Program-made: the position numbers and the translations under genes
Origin: Sporodiniella umbellata
Taxonomy: Eukaryota > Mucoromycota > Mucoromycetes > Mucorales > Rhizopodaceae
NCBI GenBank assembly: GCA_025677835.1
Contig: JAIXMR010000001.1
Span: forward strand, 434,001 to 498,000
DNA length: 64,000 nt
Direction: 5' to 3'
In this document: positions 754 through 9,523 of the stretch, one piece after another
How the letters are laid out: each line of letters opens with the position of its first letter
Position numbering within the stretch: position 1 is the first letter of the stretch
The notes under the pieces: model-generated
What the model saw: the letters and a program-made list of their open reading frames with translations, nothing else
Database searches by the model: none
Told to the model about the DNA's origin: nothing

Positions 754-2271
754 AAAAAAAAAAGAAAAAGAGAGAAAGAATTGGGAAATTTTTAAATAAC
801 ATTTTGAAAGAATAATAAGAAATTTATTATTGTTTTCATGGTTATTTCTTAATTTTCTTGATAAACAATGGACTAAAAACAAAAACAAAAACAGAGAAAA
901 AAAGGTGTGACCAGCGCTAGATTCTCTCTTTTCCTTTTTTTTTTTTTTTTTTTTTTTATATATATATATATGGGAGAAAGCCTTATCAAAAATATTTATA
1001 TTTTCTTTATATAAAAACTCTTGTTTTATAAATTTTTACAAAAAAAAAAAGTATGCATTCATCACGGAACTACTGTCTCATTATTTAATCGTATTCGTTC
1101 CCAGACTGTGTCTACCAAATATCTCGGTGTCTCTACCAAAACGCCGCTATCGTTTCCTGGGATTGAAAAAGAAACCAAGACGAGTGAAGGTACATGTTTT
1201 GTGGCTCGAATGAACAGCTGGGATCCTTTTGTTATCTGGATTGTAGACCCTTCCTCACCTCAAGAAACAGACCCCAGCCTGTATCCACCTCCGCCTGCGA
1301 TTGCTTTAAAGAACAAGACGGGCGAGCCGGTGCCTATCCATTACAATCAGCCTGTGGTGCTCCAATGTCTCACCACAGGTCTGGTCAGTCCAGTGATGGT
1401 GATTCGTAAGGTCGATCGGGCTTCGACTGTCGTTGGCGGTGCACAAGAAGAAACGGGAGAAGAAGTGTTGGGTGATCCTGTCTCTCAGTTACACAAGATT
1501 GCCCTTCAAATCGTGCAAGACCCTGGCGAGTGCGCCCATACCTACTTGGCCTGTCTGAACGATATTGTCGGCATGCACAAGACGACTTTGGCTCGCAAAC
1601 CAGTCCATAAAGTCTGGGACGAAAGTGGCTTTGATGTGATTACCTCGCAAGAAGGTGGCAAAGTGGTACGCAAACGTCGCGTCTCAATGGATCCCCACCC
1701 GCCTGAAAGCCTGATGTCTTCCATGAGCTTATCTGACCCACCTACCTTGGACCCTTACCGACGCCATGAAGAATCTGATCTCTCGCGCAAATCTAGCCTG
1801 AGCTCTTCCGCTTCCTCTACCCCTTCCCTTGCCCGTCGTTCGTCTTCGGCTTCTACCATGATGAACCAACTCGGTGCCTTCTGGACAGAGGATGTCTCAG
1901 ACGCTGCTGTCTGGACCATCGTCGGTACCGACTGTGCCACTTACACTTTCTGGTCTCCCCAACTCATCGAAACCCCTCAGGCTACCCTCTCCTCCAATCC
2001 CTTGCCTTCGCTTTCCCATTACTTTTCAAGCACTTCCAACCATGAAACCCTCTTGACCTTACACGGCGAAAACTTTTCTCGCGACCTTGAAATCTGGTTT
2101 GGCGACATCAAAGCTGTCTATACCGAATACAGAAGCAGAGAACTCTTGATCTGTCAATTGCCTTCCAGACTTGACTTGCAACAGGTTCAGAAACATCATG
2201 GCCAGATACCCATCTTGTTGGTCAGAGCCGATAGTACCATTTGTAAATCCGGTCAATACTTTCATCTCTAA
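1..2271 (+). CDS. CSL (CBF1/Su(H)/LAG-1) family transcription factor, 5' partial
   Basis: The N-terminus lies outside the window. Three exons are visible: 1-92, 154-698 and 1052-2271. Both introns join in frame and restore conserved CSL sequence: 'SYGTEK'+'RFLCPPP' across the first, and 'KNME'+'LCIHHGT' across the second through a split Leu codon. In order I see the end of the RHR-like N-terminal domain, then the beta-trefoil ('KVISKPSKK', 'GTTVSLFNRIRSQTVSTKYL'), a Ser/Pro-rich low-complexity insert, and a C-terminal IPT/TIG-like domain ('LHGENFSRDLEIWFGDI'). CSL proteins bind GTGRGAA-type DNA. Fungi have no Notch, so the fungal members act outside that pathway. Two Ser-rich inserts make it longer than animal CSL, as is usual in fungi. 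The second intron is unusual in carrying a roughly 45-nt A-rich run, a poly-T run and a TA repeat. The family call is secure; which fungal CSL class it belongs to is not resolved. Confidence 0.93.
699..1051 (+). repeat. low-complexity intron of the CSL gene
   Basis: This 353-nt intron is much longer than its neighbours. It contains an A/G homopurine tract around 706-780, a T tract around 937-957, and a short TA repeat around 957-971. It ends in A(10)-AG. The 5' splice site is GTAACG. Confidence 0.7.
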
Positions 2272-2503: not shown

Positions 2504-3848
2504 TTATGAATCCAAAAGGGATCTCCATTGACAGAGGTTGGTCTGGAGTTGATCTAGACTCATTTGCCATACAGGACATAGACGAGCCATGGCCACAAAT
2601 AGATCCAAAGCGACATGCCGAATAAACCCTACCTGGGTACCCAAAACCCATCTGGAACCTACAGGAAGACCGTACAGACTTTCGAGTTGAGCCTGAACTT
2701 CCATTTCTTCCCTGAGTGCTTGAGACCATCGTTGACTGATAGGGAATTTGCGGGCCACGTTACTGATGTCTGCACATTTGATCCATGCATGACACCAAAT
2801 CAGGCTCTTTTCTGACTCGGATACTTTCAGGTAAAGTTTGTCGATATACATTTGGTGATGACTCATATCGGTAGCCAATATACTTGTGATGATTATCTTT
2901 CGAAATCCTAAAAGTCCAGATGAATTGTTTTGTGGGGTCGTTCATTCTCTTTTACGTTCAAACTTATTTCCTAATAGACGATCCAGACCGTACTTGTACA
3001 GTAACTGAGATAATGTCAACGCATGGACGTTTTCTAATACAGATTGATCGTTATAGATCAAAGCCAAAGGGTGGGTGGATTGAACCTAGCCTTAACGTCA
3101 ATCGATCGTGTCATCCATAGTTCATGGCTTACCAGAAACGCATTGTTCACTCCCGGATGGCCTGTATCGTGGCCAATCGCGGCTATCAACAAAGCCAGAC
3201 TATCATAAGCTGTAAACGGCCGCGCATGGACGTTGGCCTGATTCAGCATGAAAAATAAACATTGCAACACATCAAGTGCATGGGAAAAGTTATGATATCG
3301 ATTCTCTGCATAATAAAGATCTGCCACATCTTGAATAAAACGATATAAACCGTCTAAAGAGTCTTATTAGCCCGGGCTTTCTCTCGCTTTTTTCTTACCT
3401 TGACTAAAAGATAAAAGTGAACCGAGTTCGGGTAAAGAAAGTAACTGGCTGAAGATCCAATAGGCACTATACACCAGCTCTTCCTTGTTTAAATCGAGTG
3501 GATCGAAATCCCAACTGTGGATGTTTTCCTCAAGTTCTTTGGTTCGTTCTCTATTTTTTTTTTTTAAAAAAAAAAAAGGGAGGAGAGGGTCGGTTTACTT
3601 GAGTAAAAAGAAAAAAAAAATTTTTTTTGTCTTGTTTACCTACTTTGAAAGGGAACATAAAGGAGTTGTTGGAGGCAAAGTATGGCAGACTAGGGTAGAT
3701 AGGCTTCGAGAGTACAAAACGAATTAGGGGAATTCCCCACTCTGTAATCTGTCAAAAGAAAAAATTTACTTGTAAAGAGCCATACGTTGATATAACGCAG
3801 AAAATGTCTTGTCTGTTTCTTTCTTATCTAGCTTCTATTTTTTCATAA

Positions 3849-3883
<35 letters not shown>

Positions 3884-4079
3884 GCGTTATTATTTACAAT
3901 TATCAAAGTGATAAAAGAAAGATATAACCAAAATCAAACTGTGGATCTCTTCCACGTGAAAAGGTCGAACCAAATAAGCAATAGCCCCTGTACGAACACA
4001 GGTCAATAGGGTATCGATTTCTTCTTGAATTGAACACACTAATTACGAAACAAACCCCCCAAAAAAAGAAAGCAATCAG

Positions 4080-4112
<33 letters not shown>

Positions 4113-4448
4113 GGGGAGAAAGCTTTGCTTTTTTTTTTTTTTTTTTTTTTTTACCCACAAGAGAAACACATTCAGTAAAATCAGCCAAGATGGTTTGAAA
4201 CCAACTGGGTTTTATCGCGTCCAAATCAATTAAAAATAGTGTGGGATGATTATTTTCACTGATCTCTTTCACTTGCTGTATGGCTTTTGTCGTATCTGAC
4301 TCTATGTAAACTAAAAGAACAGCTGTCAGTAACATATATACACAAGACGCTGGTCTAAACCTTGATCGAAAACAGATGTCAATATATCTTTGTCGTTGTC
4401 GTTATTTGTGTTGACTAAATACACTACGCTGTGGCTTTCTTCCTGCAT
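2504..4448 (-). CDS. 3',5'-cyclic nucleotide phosphodiesterase with N-terminal receiver-like domain (RegA-like)
   Basis: The start ATG is at 4448, the stop ends at 2504, and about seven introns interrupt it. Residues 1 to about 115 fold by motif as a response-regulator receiver: beta1 'VVYLVNT', helix 'DKDILTSVF', beta2 'VYIES', beta3 'PTLFLIDLDA', beta4 'CVSLVVCS', and beta5 'GAIAYLVRPFHVEEI'. The rest is a class I PDE: 'YHNFSHALDV', the metal-binding 'GHDTGHPGVNNAFLV', 'LALIYNDQSVLENVHA', 'ILATDMSHH' and 'KCADISNVAR'. It should hydrolyse cAMP and/or cGMP and so dampen PKA signalling. The putative phospho-accepting Asp of beta3 is present. The acidic pair after beta1 is replaced by Asn-Thr, and the beta5 Lys by Arg, so phosphotransfer may be lost. 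Splice joins verified by frame include 'NNAFL|VQSTHPLAL' and 'KFE|RFRKIIITS'. Joins between about 3550 and 3860 are less certain. The introns are full of poly-A/T, including T(n)A(n) runs. Confidence 0.88.
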
Positions 4449-6282: not shown

Positions 6283-7326
6283 ATGTCAGACACAGTACCT
6301 TCAGACGCCAATGCCCATTGTCCAGTAAGAAAGAGAGAGAGAGGGTTTTAGATATGGACTAAACAAAAACAAAAAGGGACCTGAAAGCCAAAAAGCAGGA
6401 CAAGACGATGCTTGTGCTGGCTGCCCTAATCAAACGATATGTGCTACTGCGCCTAAAGGACCTGATCCAGGTGAGAGACATTGCCAAAAAAAAAAAACGC
6501 CCTTTTGATTCCTGTTATTATAGACATTCCTGCTATTACCGAAAGACTTTCTGAAGTACAACACAAGATCTTGGTATTATCGGGAAAAGGAGGTGTGGGC
6601 AAAAGTAGCTTTACATCCCAACTGGCATTTGCATTAGCCAATGATGAAGATTGTCAAGTGGGAGTGATGGATGTTGATATCTGTGGACCGTCGATACCCA
6701 CGATTATGGGCGTTGTGAATGAACAGATTCATTCGAGCAATACAGGCTGGCAACCGGTGTATGTTCAAGACAATCTGGCAGTGATGTCTATCGGCTTTAT
6801 GCTACCGGATAAAGACGATGCAGTCATCTGGCGAGGACCTAAAAAGAATGGGTTGATCAAGCAGTTCTTGAGGGATGTCGAGTGGGGCCCACTGGATTAT
6901 CTCTTGGTCGATACACCACCTGGTACTTCAGACGAACATCTCTCGCTAGCTTCTTTGATGAAACAAAGCGGTATTGAAGGCGCTGTGATCATCACCACAC
7001 CTCAAGAGGTCGCTTTACAAGACGTTCGAAAAGAGATTGATTTCTGTAAAAAGGCCAAAATCCAAATCTTGGGCTTGGTCGAAAACATGTCTGGTTTCGT
7101 TTGTCCCAACTGTCATGGTGAGTCTGTCATTTTCCCTCCTACCACAGGGGGTGCAGAGGCCTTGGCCAAGGAGTTTGCCATTCCTTTGCTGGGCAAGATT
7201 CCTTTGGACCCTCGTGTGGCTCAATGCTGCGATATGGGCATCTCTTTTCTAGAGGAGTATCCTGATTCTCCAGCTAGCATCGCTTATCAAGATATTATCA
7301 AAAGTATAAACACTCCCCCACCCTAA
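6283..7326 (+). CDS. NBP35: Cytosolic Fe-S cluster assembly P-loop ATPase NBP35
   Basis: Three exons (6283-6324, 6377-6470, 6524-7326) give 312 residues, the usual size. The N-terminus carries the Nbp35-specific ferredoxin-like motif C13-X13-C27-X2-C30-X5-C36, which separates it from Cfd1. The deviant Walker A '[10 protein letters not shown]' follows at about residue 65. Further on are '[10 protein letters not shown]', '[10 protein letters not shown]', and the C-terminal bridging motif 'CPNC', which binds the cluster shared with Cfd1. Nbp35 and Cfd1 form the scaffold of the cytosolic Fe-S assembly machinery serving cytosolic and nuclear proteins. The start is fixed because the Met opens the conserved Cys segment, and both introns join in frame. 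A 22-nt T tract and TAG lie just before the ATG. Confidence 0.96.
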
Positions 7327-7975: not shown

Positions 7976-9523
7976 TTACTCGGTTTTATTTAATAATGGA
8001 AGGGAATGTCTATAAATACCAACCAATAACATGACGTGACATGCTAGCAGCGAATAAGAACTGTTGGAGGTGGAAGGAAATGTGAGCCAACATCCTTCGA
8101 TAGTCGTAAAAATAAAGATTTTAGCGGCCAATGGAAAGTTGGTGATCTGCCATTCACTTTGCCACAGTAAATAGGGAATCGTTTGGAAATACCAAGAGTA
8201 GAACTGATAGTGCAATGACCTTGCAAACAAAATGCCAATAAAGTTGGACGTAAACATCATGAAAATGATATCTAAATTATCAATCAGTATTCTCTCTCCC
8301 TTCTTATTTACCGTCATTTGAGATGTTTCTTCTGCCATGAGCGAAACCTTCTTTGAATACGTTGAGTAAACCGCCTTTTCTTAAGTTACTGTTAGTCTCT
8401 CTTATTTTAGTTCTTGGTTTAATTGTCAATCACATTACGGTTTACACCAAATATGGACGATAAATAACAGTAAGGTGACAGCATGACCAGCAAGCAATAG
8501 CTTTGAAAATCCATCGGACAAAAATGTTTCTTTGTCTATCATGCGCCAGTTTACGGTCCATGTATAATCAAATACCCGTCCAAACTCAAATGCCCTAGCC
8601 CAGTAAGATGCTGGATAGGTGCTTAGGAACGGATATGCTAACCCAGCCTATCCTCCCCCAATAAAATAAAAAGAGAGCATGAGCAATCCCTATCTACCCA
8701 AAGAATGGCATGGAAACCTACTTGAATCATGGCAAACAGCCCCAGCTGTCCTACTGTCTTCCAGGCACCCACACACATCCATAAAAGGATGCCAAAGGCA
8801 GGAAAAAACAACAAAACATTCATTTTGACTGACAATGCACAGCTAAACAAAACAGTACTTAAGGTCCATCGTCTGTAAGTCATGGCCAAAATACAGGCGT
8901 ACATAAAACACATGGCCACAGGATCATTAAAGCACCGAAGCATGAAAATCGAATGGAAACGCTTCGAGCACGCTAACAAGATCATTGCATAAGGGGGCAC
9001 TTTTTGAGATTGGTGATAGATAGCCATAACTATCGTCTGATTCACCAGATAGAGCCCCTCGAATATATATTGGGCCGTTCGTATTTGGGTGCCTTGGTTG
9101 GTCAGGTAATAAAGAAACGAATAAACGTATACAAAACCTGCTGGATACCTGTCTATACTCATTAGTTTATTTCGTACCACTCCCATCCCTATACTTGCAC
9201 TAAAGGCCCTGTATCTCCCTGTAGATTTCTATAATCCCTTTCACCGTATAGAAAACCTTCCACTTCTTGCATATAAGCCCTCCAATCAATCTCTGTATCT
9301 TTATTGTTATTAGACTCTCTGTTTGGCTTGGGCTCAACTTACATGGTACTTTTCGAACTATCAATGTACTCAACACGAGTTCGCCCACAATAATGAGGCC
9401 TGAAAGGTGCCAGAAATATTTAGGGTTACAAAAGAAATCCGAAACAATATGTATCAAATCGTGTAGACTGTGTGCTCTAGTTGAGTCTCGTAAAATCTTT
9501 TTTCGTGTCAATTTCTTTGGCAT
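7976..9523 (-). CDS. ALG3: Dol-P-Man:Man5GlcNAc2-PP-dolichol alpha-1,3-mannosyltransferase ALG3
   Basis: This ER-lumen multi-spanning glycosyltransferase adds the first dolichol-phosphate-mannose-derived mannose to the N-glycan precursor. The start at 9523 gives a basic N-terminus ('MPKKLTRKK'); an upstream in-frame Met would only add a hydrophobic, non-conserved stretch. Family motifs recovered by splicing are '[17 protein letters not shown]', '[20 protein letters not shown]', '[16 protein letters not shown]', '[16 protein letters not shown]' and '[20 protein letters not shown]'. Several hydrophobic membrane segments are visible. The intron between 'GPLV' and 'YPAGFV' uses a GC donor (GCAAGT) instead of GT. 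Joins in the 8240-8470 part ('[15 protein letters not shown]' and '...ISND|DIIFMM') are my best fit to frame. HAUS6 lies upstream on the same strand, 136 bp away. Confidence 0.92.

Follow-up and report, generated by a model that had tools for sequence, protein, structure and literature searches.

The Locus and Its Gene Model

The window, a stretch of 64,000 nucleotides from Sporodiniella umbellata (Mucorales, Rhizopodaceae, according to a taxonomy look-up), carries on its minus strand a gene whose predicted product joins an N-terminal receiver (REC) domain to a class I cyclic-nucleotide phosphodiesterase (PDE). The initial annotation had placed this fusion at 2504–4448, and exact mapping of a public gene model, BY458DRAFT_496087 (hereafter P0001), returns the same limits for the start of the coding region and the end of its stop codon (Table 1). 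The model matches the window letter for letter, and all of its introns are GT-AG. Its product runs from a receiver (residues ~5–124) through a low-confidence linker (~125–160) to the PDE (~160–461). That both parts would lie on one polypeptide is indicated by the annotated gene model and by the same order in relatives. Elsewhere in the window, a Pfam scan found an exon that encodes BTD and TIG_SUH domains of a transcription factor of the CSL/Su(H) type (1015–2271, plus strand), an iron-sulphur P-loop NTPase of the NUBPL/NBP35 type (6475–7326, plus) and a fragment of an ALG3 mannosyltransferase (8638–9228, minus).

Table 1. Features of the REC-PDE gene, in window coordinates.
Feature	Position	Strand	Content and basis
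Whole coding region	4448 to 2504	minus	ATG at 4448, stop TAA 2506-2504; 9 exons, 461 aa (P0001)
Exon 1	4361..4448	minus	receiver beta1, alpha1 (spliced mapping, predicted secondary structure)
Exon 2	4155..4310	minus	receiver beta2 to beta4, with Asp58 (mapping, prediction)
Exon 3	3929..4038	minus	end of beta4, alpha4, beta5, start of alpha5; YLVRPFHVEEI (mapping, prediction)
Exon 4	3770..3834	minus	end of alpha5 and low-confidence linker; pLDDT <50 at residues 126-138, 140-146
Exon 5	3644..3703	minus	linker (spliced mapping)
Exon 6	3399..3550	minus	catalytic module begins (mapping, prediction)
Exon 7	3133..3353	minus	PDE core with YHNFSH and GHDTGHPGVNNAF (mapping, domain scan)
Exon 8	2956..3085	minus	PDE core (spliced mapping)
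Exon 9	2507..2907	minus	PDE core (ATDMSHH, KCADISNV), C-terminus; no CaaX tail
Introns flanking linker exons	3928-3835, 3769-3704, 3643-3551	minus	GT-AG
Asn13-Thr14 codons, acidic-pair place	4407..4412	minus	ungapped reading
Asp58 codon (= CheY Asp57)	4225..4227	minus	mapping, alignment
Asp60 codon, phosphoacceptor position +2	4219..4221	minus	acidic in 94/97 non-Pezizomycotina rows
Arg106 codon (= CheY Lys109)	3965..3967	minus	mapping, alignment

The Phosphodiesterase Domain

The PDEase_I family (PF00233) matches P0001 with 200 bits (E ~5e-59). Alignment A2 has 45 gap-free columns in which the other 59 rows are identical; P0001 keeps every one, and 41 fall within the PDE region. Among these columns are the YHN and HD..HPG motifs, the Asp of the second metal and the Gln/Phe pair, which we take to function as they do in PDE4 and PDE9. 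At columns that are at least 93% conserved, P0001 differs in 12 of 96, a figure equalled among the 60 rows only by Dispira (P0105, 12/93), and presumably none of the 12 is a PDE metal or catalytic residue. The best Foldseek match is Candida albicans PDE2 (6cpt, E 1.0e-17, with an rmsd of 14.4 over 547 columns), followed by 6cpu and human PDE9 (6.0e-16). P0001 is apparently a competent class I phosphodiesterase, and its substrate is probably cAMP.

The Receiver Domain

The N-terminal domain lies at the edge of what a plain profile can detect. When it is searched in isolation, Pfam Response_reg (PF00072) is returned with 20.3 and 20.2 bits (E = 6.2e-4 and 6.9e-4), under the gathering score of 30.2 bits, and the family does not appear at E <= 0.01 when whole-length P0001 is scanned. 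A six-frame Response_reg search of the Sporodiniella genome gave 22 matches, none of them on the contigs carrying PDE matches, from which it follows that the plain profile misses receivers that are both split by introns and degenerate. Relatives are easier to recognize. All 11 receiver pieces of non-ascomycete relatives (Mucorales, Calcarisporiella, Jimgerdemannia, Rhizophagus, Basidiobolus and P0090) match Response_reg and no other Pfam family at E <= 0.01; these are the 11 of 14 cut pieces that form alignment A4, with P0023, P0066 and P0105 left out. Their profile also retrieves 28 PDB sequences at E <= 0.01, made up of response regulators and CheY-type chains, with plant ARR1 the best (E 6.7e-9).

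Structure prediction agrees with the fold proposed in the initial annotation. An AlphaFold2 model built with 60 family rows has a mean pLDDT of 88.6 and a pTM of 0.72; over residues 1–120, blocks of ten residues range from 76 to 94, with a mean of 88. Strands (E) and helices (H) are predicted to alternate as E7-11 H17-26 E29-33 H36-48 E53-58 H64-73 E79-84 H89-97 E102-105 H110-124, which is the alternation of a complete (beta-alpha)5 receiver, and this predicted fold settles the identity of the domain as far as prediction can. The orientation of the two domains is uncertain in the model, given its pTM of 0.72, a linker with pLDDT below 50 and the large rmsd of the 6cpt match. The VIA-align rows of the P0001 and yeast Pde2 models are PDE catalytic domains and hardly test the P0001 receiver.

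Distribution of the Fusion in Fungi

P0001 is not an isolated case. A search with the draft P0001 returned 405 proteins at E <= 0.001, and among the best 120 at least 23 carry precomputed PF00233 and PF00072 together, one of them, from Choanephora (P0013), being named “regA” by its source. Records so named come from Choanephora, Diplodia and two Lachnellula. A search with the eight-row alignment A1 gave, among the best 120 of 789 matches, Glomeromycotina, Basidiobolus, Dispira, Mortierella-like fungi and many Pezizomycotina, including Botrytis Bcpde2 (P0186), Alternaria and Tuber. Basidiobolus belongs to Basidiobolomycota and Dispira to Kickxellomycota (taxonomy look-up); four taxa were looked up in this way, and the other organism names are placed from general knowledge. 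Surveyed across fungi, the REC-PDE architecture is thus found in several groups: the fusion is widespread among relatives from Mucorales, Glomeromycotina, Basidiobolus and Kickxellomycota, and P0001 is not peculiar in having it. These searches cover the best 120 of 405, 789 and 878 matches, in which Basidiomycota, chytrids and Amoebozoa are barely sampled and no match is named as amoebozoan. Databases already show PF00072 on members from Mucorales, so the architecture is visible to anyone looking.

The initial annotation also stated that ascomycete PDE2-type enzymes lack a receiver, and here it was wrong. A profile-profile comparison of the hhalign type, setting the 11 non-ascomycete pieces against eight ascomycete pieces (alignment A5, eight of 11, with P0143, P0140 and P0192 left out), gives a probability of 99.4% and E 3.5e-21 over 167 columns. 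A larger set of 71 ascomycete rows, picked partly by a Ser at the Lys column, gives 99.4% and E 9.8e-22 against 17 rows, and Mucorales against ascomycete receiver profiles give 98.2% and E 3.7e-14. The N-terminal receiver is aligned in nearly all of 73 named Pezizomycotina rows; some ascomycete gene models have none, for example those of Aulographum (P0106) and Monascus (P0115), where the start may be called too late or the domain truly lost. Standard searches do not reveal it: Response_reg matched none of the eight ascomycete N-terminal pieces, a Pfam scan found no domain at all in the N-terminus of Bcpde2, and the Pezizomycotina receiver profile searched against the PDB found no receiver, its one row being adenylate kinase at E 0.47. 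Profile comparison indicates that filamentous ascomycetes have this receiver in their PDE2 as well, Botrytis Bcpde2 among them, although Pfam does not detect it.

For Saccharomycotina the signal is far fainter. Their N-termini score hhalign probabilities of only 0.1–0.2% against three receiver profiles, and two subsets reach 0.25–1.76%, with six local scores of 13.6–20.7. Four of these six exceed all ten column-shuffled controls by 1 to 5 points and two do not (controls 8.1–19.6); the highest (20.7, where its controls reach 16.0 at most) covers 15 columns only. This is a hint at most of sequence kinship with receivers. Residues 1–114 of Saccharomyces cerevisiae Pde2 (P0226) are predicted to form a (beta-alpha)4 arrangement only, and it is mainly because of this predicted strand order that yeast Pde2 may be read as carrying a receiver worn down to four units, the fifth having been lost. 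A Candida-like Pde2 N-terminus also occurs in P0320, a protein labelled as coming from an Asgard archaeon MAG, most likely through contamination or mislabelling.

The Phosphorylation Pocket

The pocket of P0001 is degenerate, as first described, and consists of Asn13-Thr14, Asp58, Ser84 and Arg106; the complete set of two acids, Asp57, Thr/Ser and Lys is not found. The Asn-Thr assignment comes from setting P0001 by eye, without gaps, against Choanephora P0013; MAFFT shifts beta1 by one column. Across the family (224 of 225 proteins aligned, 173 rows reaching the site), the position of CheY Asp57 is Asp in 161 rows, Glu in 10 and something else in 2. In this and all the following counts the rows are related, and the numbers do not represent independent events.

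Outside Pezizomycotina, 136 rows were considered, of which 97 extend to beta3, and 83 of the 97 cover beta1 as well (P0102, P0103, P0108, P0109, P0111, P0112, P0114, P0116, P0117, P0118 and P0120 were left out). Among the 97, the Asp57 position holds Asp in 88, Glu in 8 and Gln in 1; Ser87 is kept in 93; and the Lys109 position is Lys in 85, Arg in 7, His in 3 and Gln and Leu in 1 each. Position 13 is acidic in only four of the 83 non-ascomycete rows (P0023, P0182, P0213 and P0215). Two residues beyond the phosphoacceptor there is an acid in 94 of the 97 (87 Asp, 7 Glu), and P0001 has Asp60 there. In the 83 rows readable at both sites, 76 have an acid at Asp57+2 only, four at both and three at neither. 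A few Mucorales paralogues have fuller pockets, namely Fennellomyces P0182 (Asp-Asp/Asp/Ser/Lys) and Mucor P0213 (Asn-Asp/Asp/Ser/Lys).

Pezizomycotina, counted over 73 rows chosen by organism name (P0149, P0175, P0192 and P0210 left out), have a different pocket. The acidic pair reads Asp-Arg in 64 of 70 readable rows, Asp-Lys in three, and Asp-Gly, Asp-Ser and Asn-Arg in one each; the Asp57 position is Asp in 68 of 71 (2 Glu, 1 His), the following +2 position is Pro in 69 of 71, and Lys109 has become Ser in 67 of 70, with Thr, Asn or Gly in the other three. The loss of the acid at position 13 is therefore family-wide, the phosphoacceptor is kept, and an extra acid stands at +2 outside Pezizomycotina. 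The idea that Arg13 or Lys13 locks the receiver on, modelled on the constitutively active Asp13Lys form of CheY, is not relied on here, as the same change is inactive in EpsW (PMC4671073).

Paralogues, Tree Position and C-Terminal Tail

The Sporodiniella genome has eight PDE loci, five of which encode REC-PDEs, four besides P0001. At the other three, two on C122 and one on C12, the best query match is confined to the PDE region. Read by eye, the five pockets all differ: Asn-Thr/Asp/Ser/Arg in P0001 (C1), Tyr-Pro/Asp/Ser/Lys in C167, Lys-Gln/Asp/Ser/Tyr in C177, Lys-Pro/Glu/Ser/Gln in C68 and Asn-Glu/Asp/Ser/Lys in C112. Five paralogues with five pocket states form a ready comparative series. 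The phosphoacceptor of the C68 paralogue (L036, ~4079–4280) is a phosphomimetic-like Glu (TLVLLEFDE), and several Mucor-type rows, like Botrytis Bcpde2, have Glu at this position too.

In a 30-row tree, P0001 falls in one group with Rhizopus sequences and the paralogue on C167 (88/99, unstarred). Its end branch of 2.3, about 12 times the median of 0.19, is the only one flagged as long. A quick tree of 69 rows puts it beside Mycotypha (89), which we take to mean that so long a branch is not securely placed. On the 30-row tree, P0001 is a fast-evolving duplicate within the Rhizopus/Sporodiniella group, and its long branch also fits relaxed constraint.

A C-terminal CaaX tail is a farnesylation signal. 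Tails of the form Cys-x-x-Gln (e.g., CQCSIQ) end 71 of 345 proteins, among them P0002, P0011, P0047, P0078, P0123 and P0182, and the named carriers belong to Mucoromycota and Glomeromycotina. In these groups the REC-PDE tail is likely a prenylation signal, suggesting a membrane-bound phosphodiesterase. The tail is absent from the C-terminus of P0001, so that ordinary members may be membrane-bound and P0001 may not be; the C167 gene model stops at the contig end, which hides its tail.

How the Receiver May Act

The reading preferred here, to which we give a probability of roughly 0.6, is that P0001 is a RegA-like fungal PDE2, a fast-evolving duplicate with an active PDE and a phosphorylation-independent receiver that was inherited and then disarmed. 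An intact (beta-alpha)5 receiver would be joined through a flexible linker to a class I PDE, probably directed at cAMP. Since neither acid of the pair is left and Arg takes the place of the pocket Lys, the receiver is unlikely to accept phosphate in the normal way, and the direct two-component-to-cAMP link that had been envisaged is unlikely in P0001 itself. It would instead pack on the catalytic domain, dimerise it or bind a partner, and would thereby set or tune PDE activity without phosphorylation. In the family at large, the receiver would have been inherited first and disarmed later, P0001 being one Rhizopus/Sporodiniella duplicate. Two features speak against phosphorylation-independence: Asp57 persists in 161 of 173 rows and in P0001, though a receiver that no longer takes phosphate would have no need of it, and the acid at Asp57+2 (94/97, and P0001) could replace the lost metal ligand.

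That second feature underlies an unlikely rival, in which the acid has been relocated: Asp or Glu at Asp57+2 (Asp60 in P0001) and Asp57 together would hold Mg2+, and phosphorelay would still switch the PDE, at least in non-ascomycetes. Of the 83 rows readable at both sites, 76 have an acid at +2 and none at 13, and Pezizomycotina, with Pro at +2 in 69 of 71, have also lost the Lys. Outside Pezizomycotina the rest of the pocket is kept (Asp57 88/97, Ser87 93/97, Lys109 85/97), and the Sporodiniella genome has nine HisKA matches. But P0001 has also lost Lys109 to Arg, and in CheY it is the main-chain carbonyl of the residue at 57+2 that binds the metal, rather than the side chain. The +2 acid could be a mere feature of the fold, in rows that are related. 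No HPt match was found in this genome with PF01627 or yeast Ypd1, in a six-frame search that intron-cut genes can escape and that had no positive fungal control. The strong retention of Asp57 and of the +2 acid makes a rebuilt pocket worth testing.

It is improbable, too, that P0001 is simply decaying, a redundant REC-PDE copy under relaxed constraint in which the receiver and its regulation have no importance. The sole flagged branch of the 30-row tree (2.3 against 0.19), the missing CaaX tail, the 12 of 96 altered conserved columns and the four other REC-PDEs of the genome would all suit such a copy; against it are nine intact exons with no stop or frameshift, the retention of every one of the 45 columns that do not vary among the other 59 rows, and a receiver fold predicted to be complete. 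Two separate genes, or an annotation artefact joining receiver and PDE, can be rejected as highly implausible. In favour of this view are the shortness of the linker exons, their low confidence in the model and a different linker obtained by hand splicing; against it, the exact spliced model spans the linker with in-frame GT-AG exons, and the same order recurs on one protein in many gene models and in the paralogues of the genome itself.

Beyond the phosphorylation-independent reading of P0001 lies a wider history, put forward tentatively and with rather more doubt than belief. The fungal high-affinity cAMP phosphodiesterase, yeast Pde2 included, might be a disarmed RegA, descended from an ancestor that tied histidine phosphorelay to cAMP. 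Most lineages would have lost acid 13, Pezizomycotina also the Lys, and Saccharomycotina would be down to (beta-alpha)4, while some Mucorales paralogues (Fennellomyces P0182, Mucor P0213 and Sporodiniella C112, with Asn-Glu) might still run a live switch through their kept pocket or the +2 acid.

Comparison with Known Systems

Filamentous-fungal cAMP phosphodiesterases sit in a pathway controlling growth and development. If the ascomycete N-termini are receivers, hidden there but visible in Mucorales, RegA becomes the proper comparison for fungal PDE2, a fungal ancestor would have had its two-component and cAMP pathways physically joined, and it becomes testable whether the pocket is dead, is locked or has been rebuilt around a nearby acid. 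In Dictyostelium, sections of PMC11988041 describe how phosphorelay through RdeA to Asp212 activates the RegA PDE. After a screen of GenBank eukaryotes, RegA homologues were reported in Dictyostelia, Acanthamoeba and Naegleria (Du et al., 2014; PMC3906536), and the main text of that article nowhere uses “fungi” or “fungal”. According to parts of PMC3906536 and PMC4399386, RegA occurs in Amoebozoa and Naegleria, and a part of PMC4758236 describes two RegA-like proteins in Physarum. The portions available of PMC7700396, PMC6944256 and PMC10572898 contain nothing on fungal REC-PDEs. In the literature searched, which left most subscription papers outside its scope, there was no report of a receiver in fungal PDE2 and no account of the spread, the hidden ascomycete form or the pocket states of REC-PDEs.

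Compared with Dictyostelium RegA, P0001 has the same domain order, a receiver followed by a class I PDE on one chain, as the initial annotation proposed and as the spliced model and the AlphaFold2 prediction agree. The likeness is one of order: P0001 has Asn-Thr for the acidic pair and Arg for the Lys, so that residues for a phosphorelay pocket are missing, and sequence searches and trees group P0001 with the fungal REC-PDE/PDE2 lineage. With fungal PDE2 it shares the PDE family, the fold (C. albicans PDE2 being the best match) and, in Pezizomycotina, the N-terminal receiver, but Pezizomycotina PDE2 has an Asp-Arg pair, Ser for Lys and Pro at Asp57+2, whereas Saccharomycotina Pde2 has no significant receiver profile match and a (beta-alpha)4 yeast model. 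The REC-PDEs of other Mucorales (Rhizopus P0002 and P0007, Mucor P0011, Choanephora P0013) share its architecture and clade; unlike P0001, with its Arg and its tailless C-terminus, they retain the Lys and have a CaaX-like tail.
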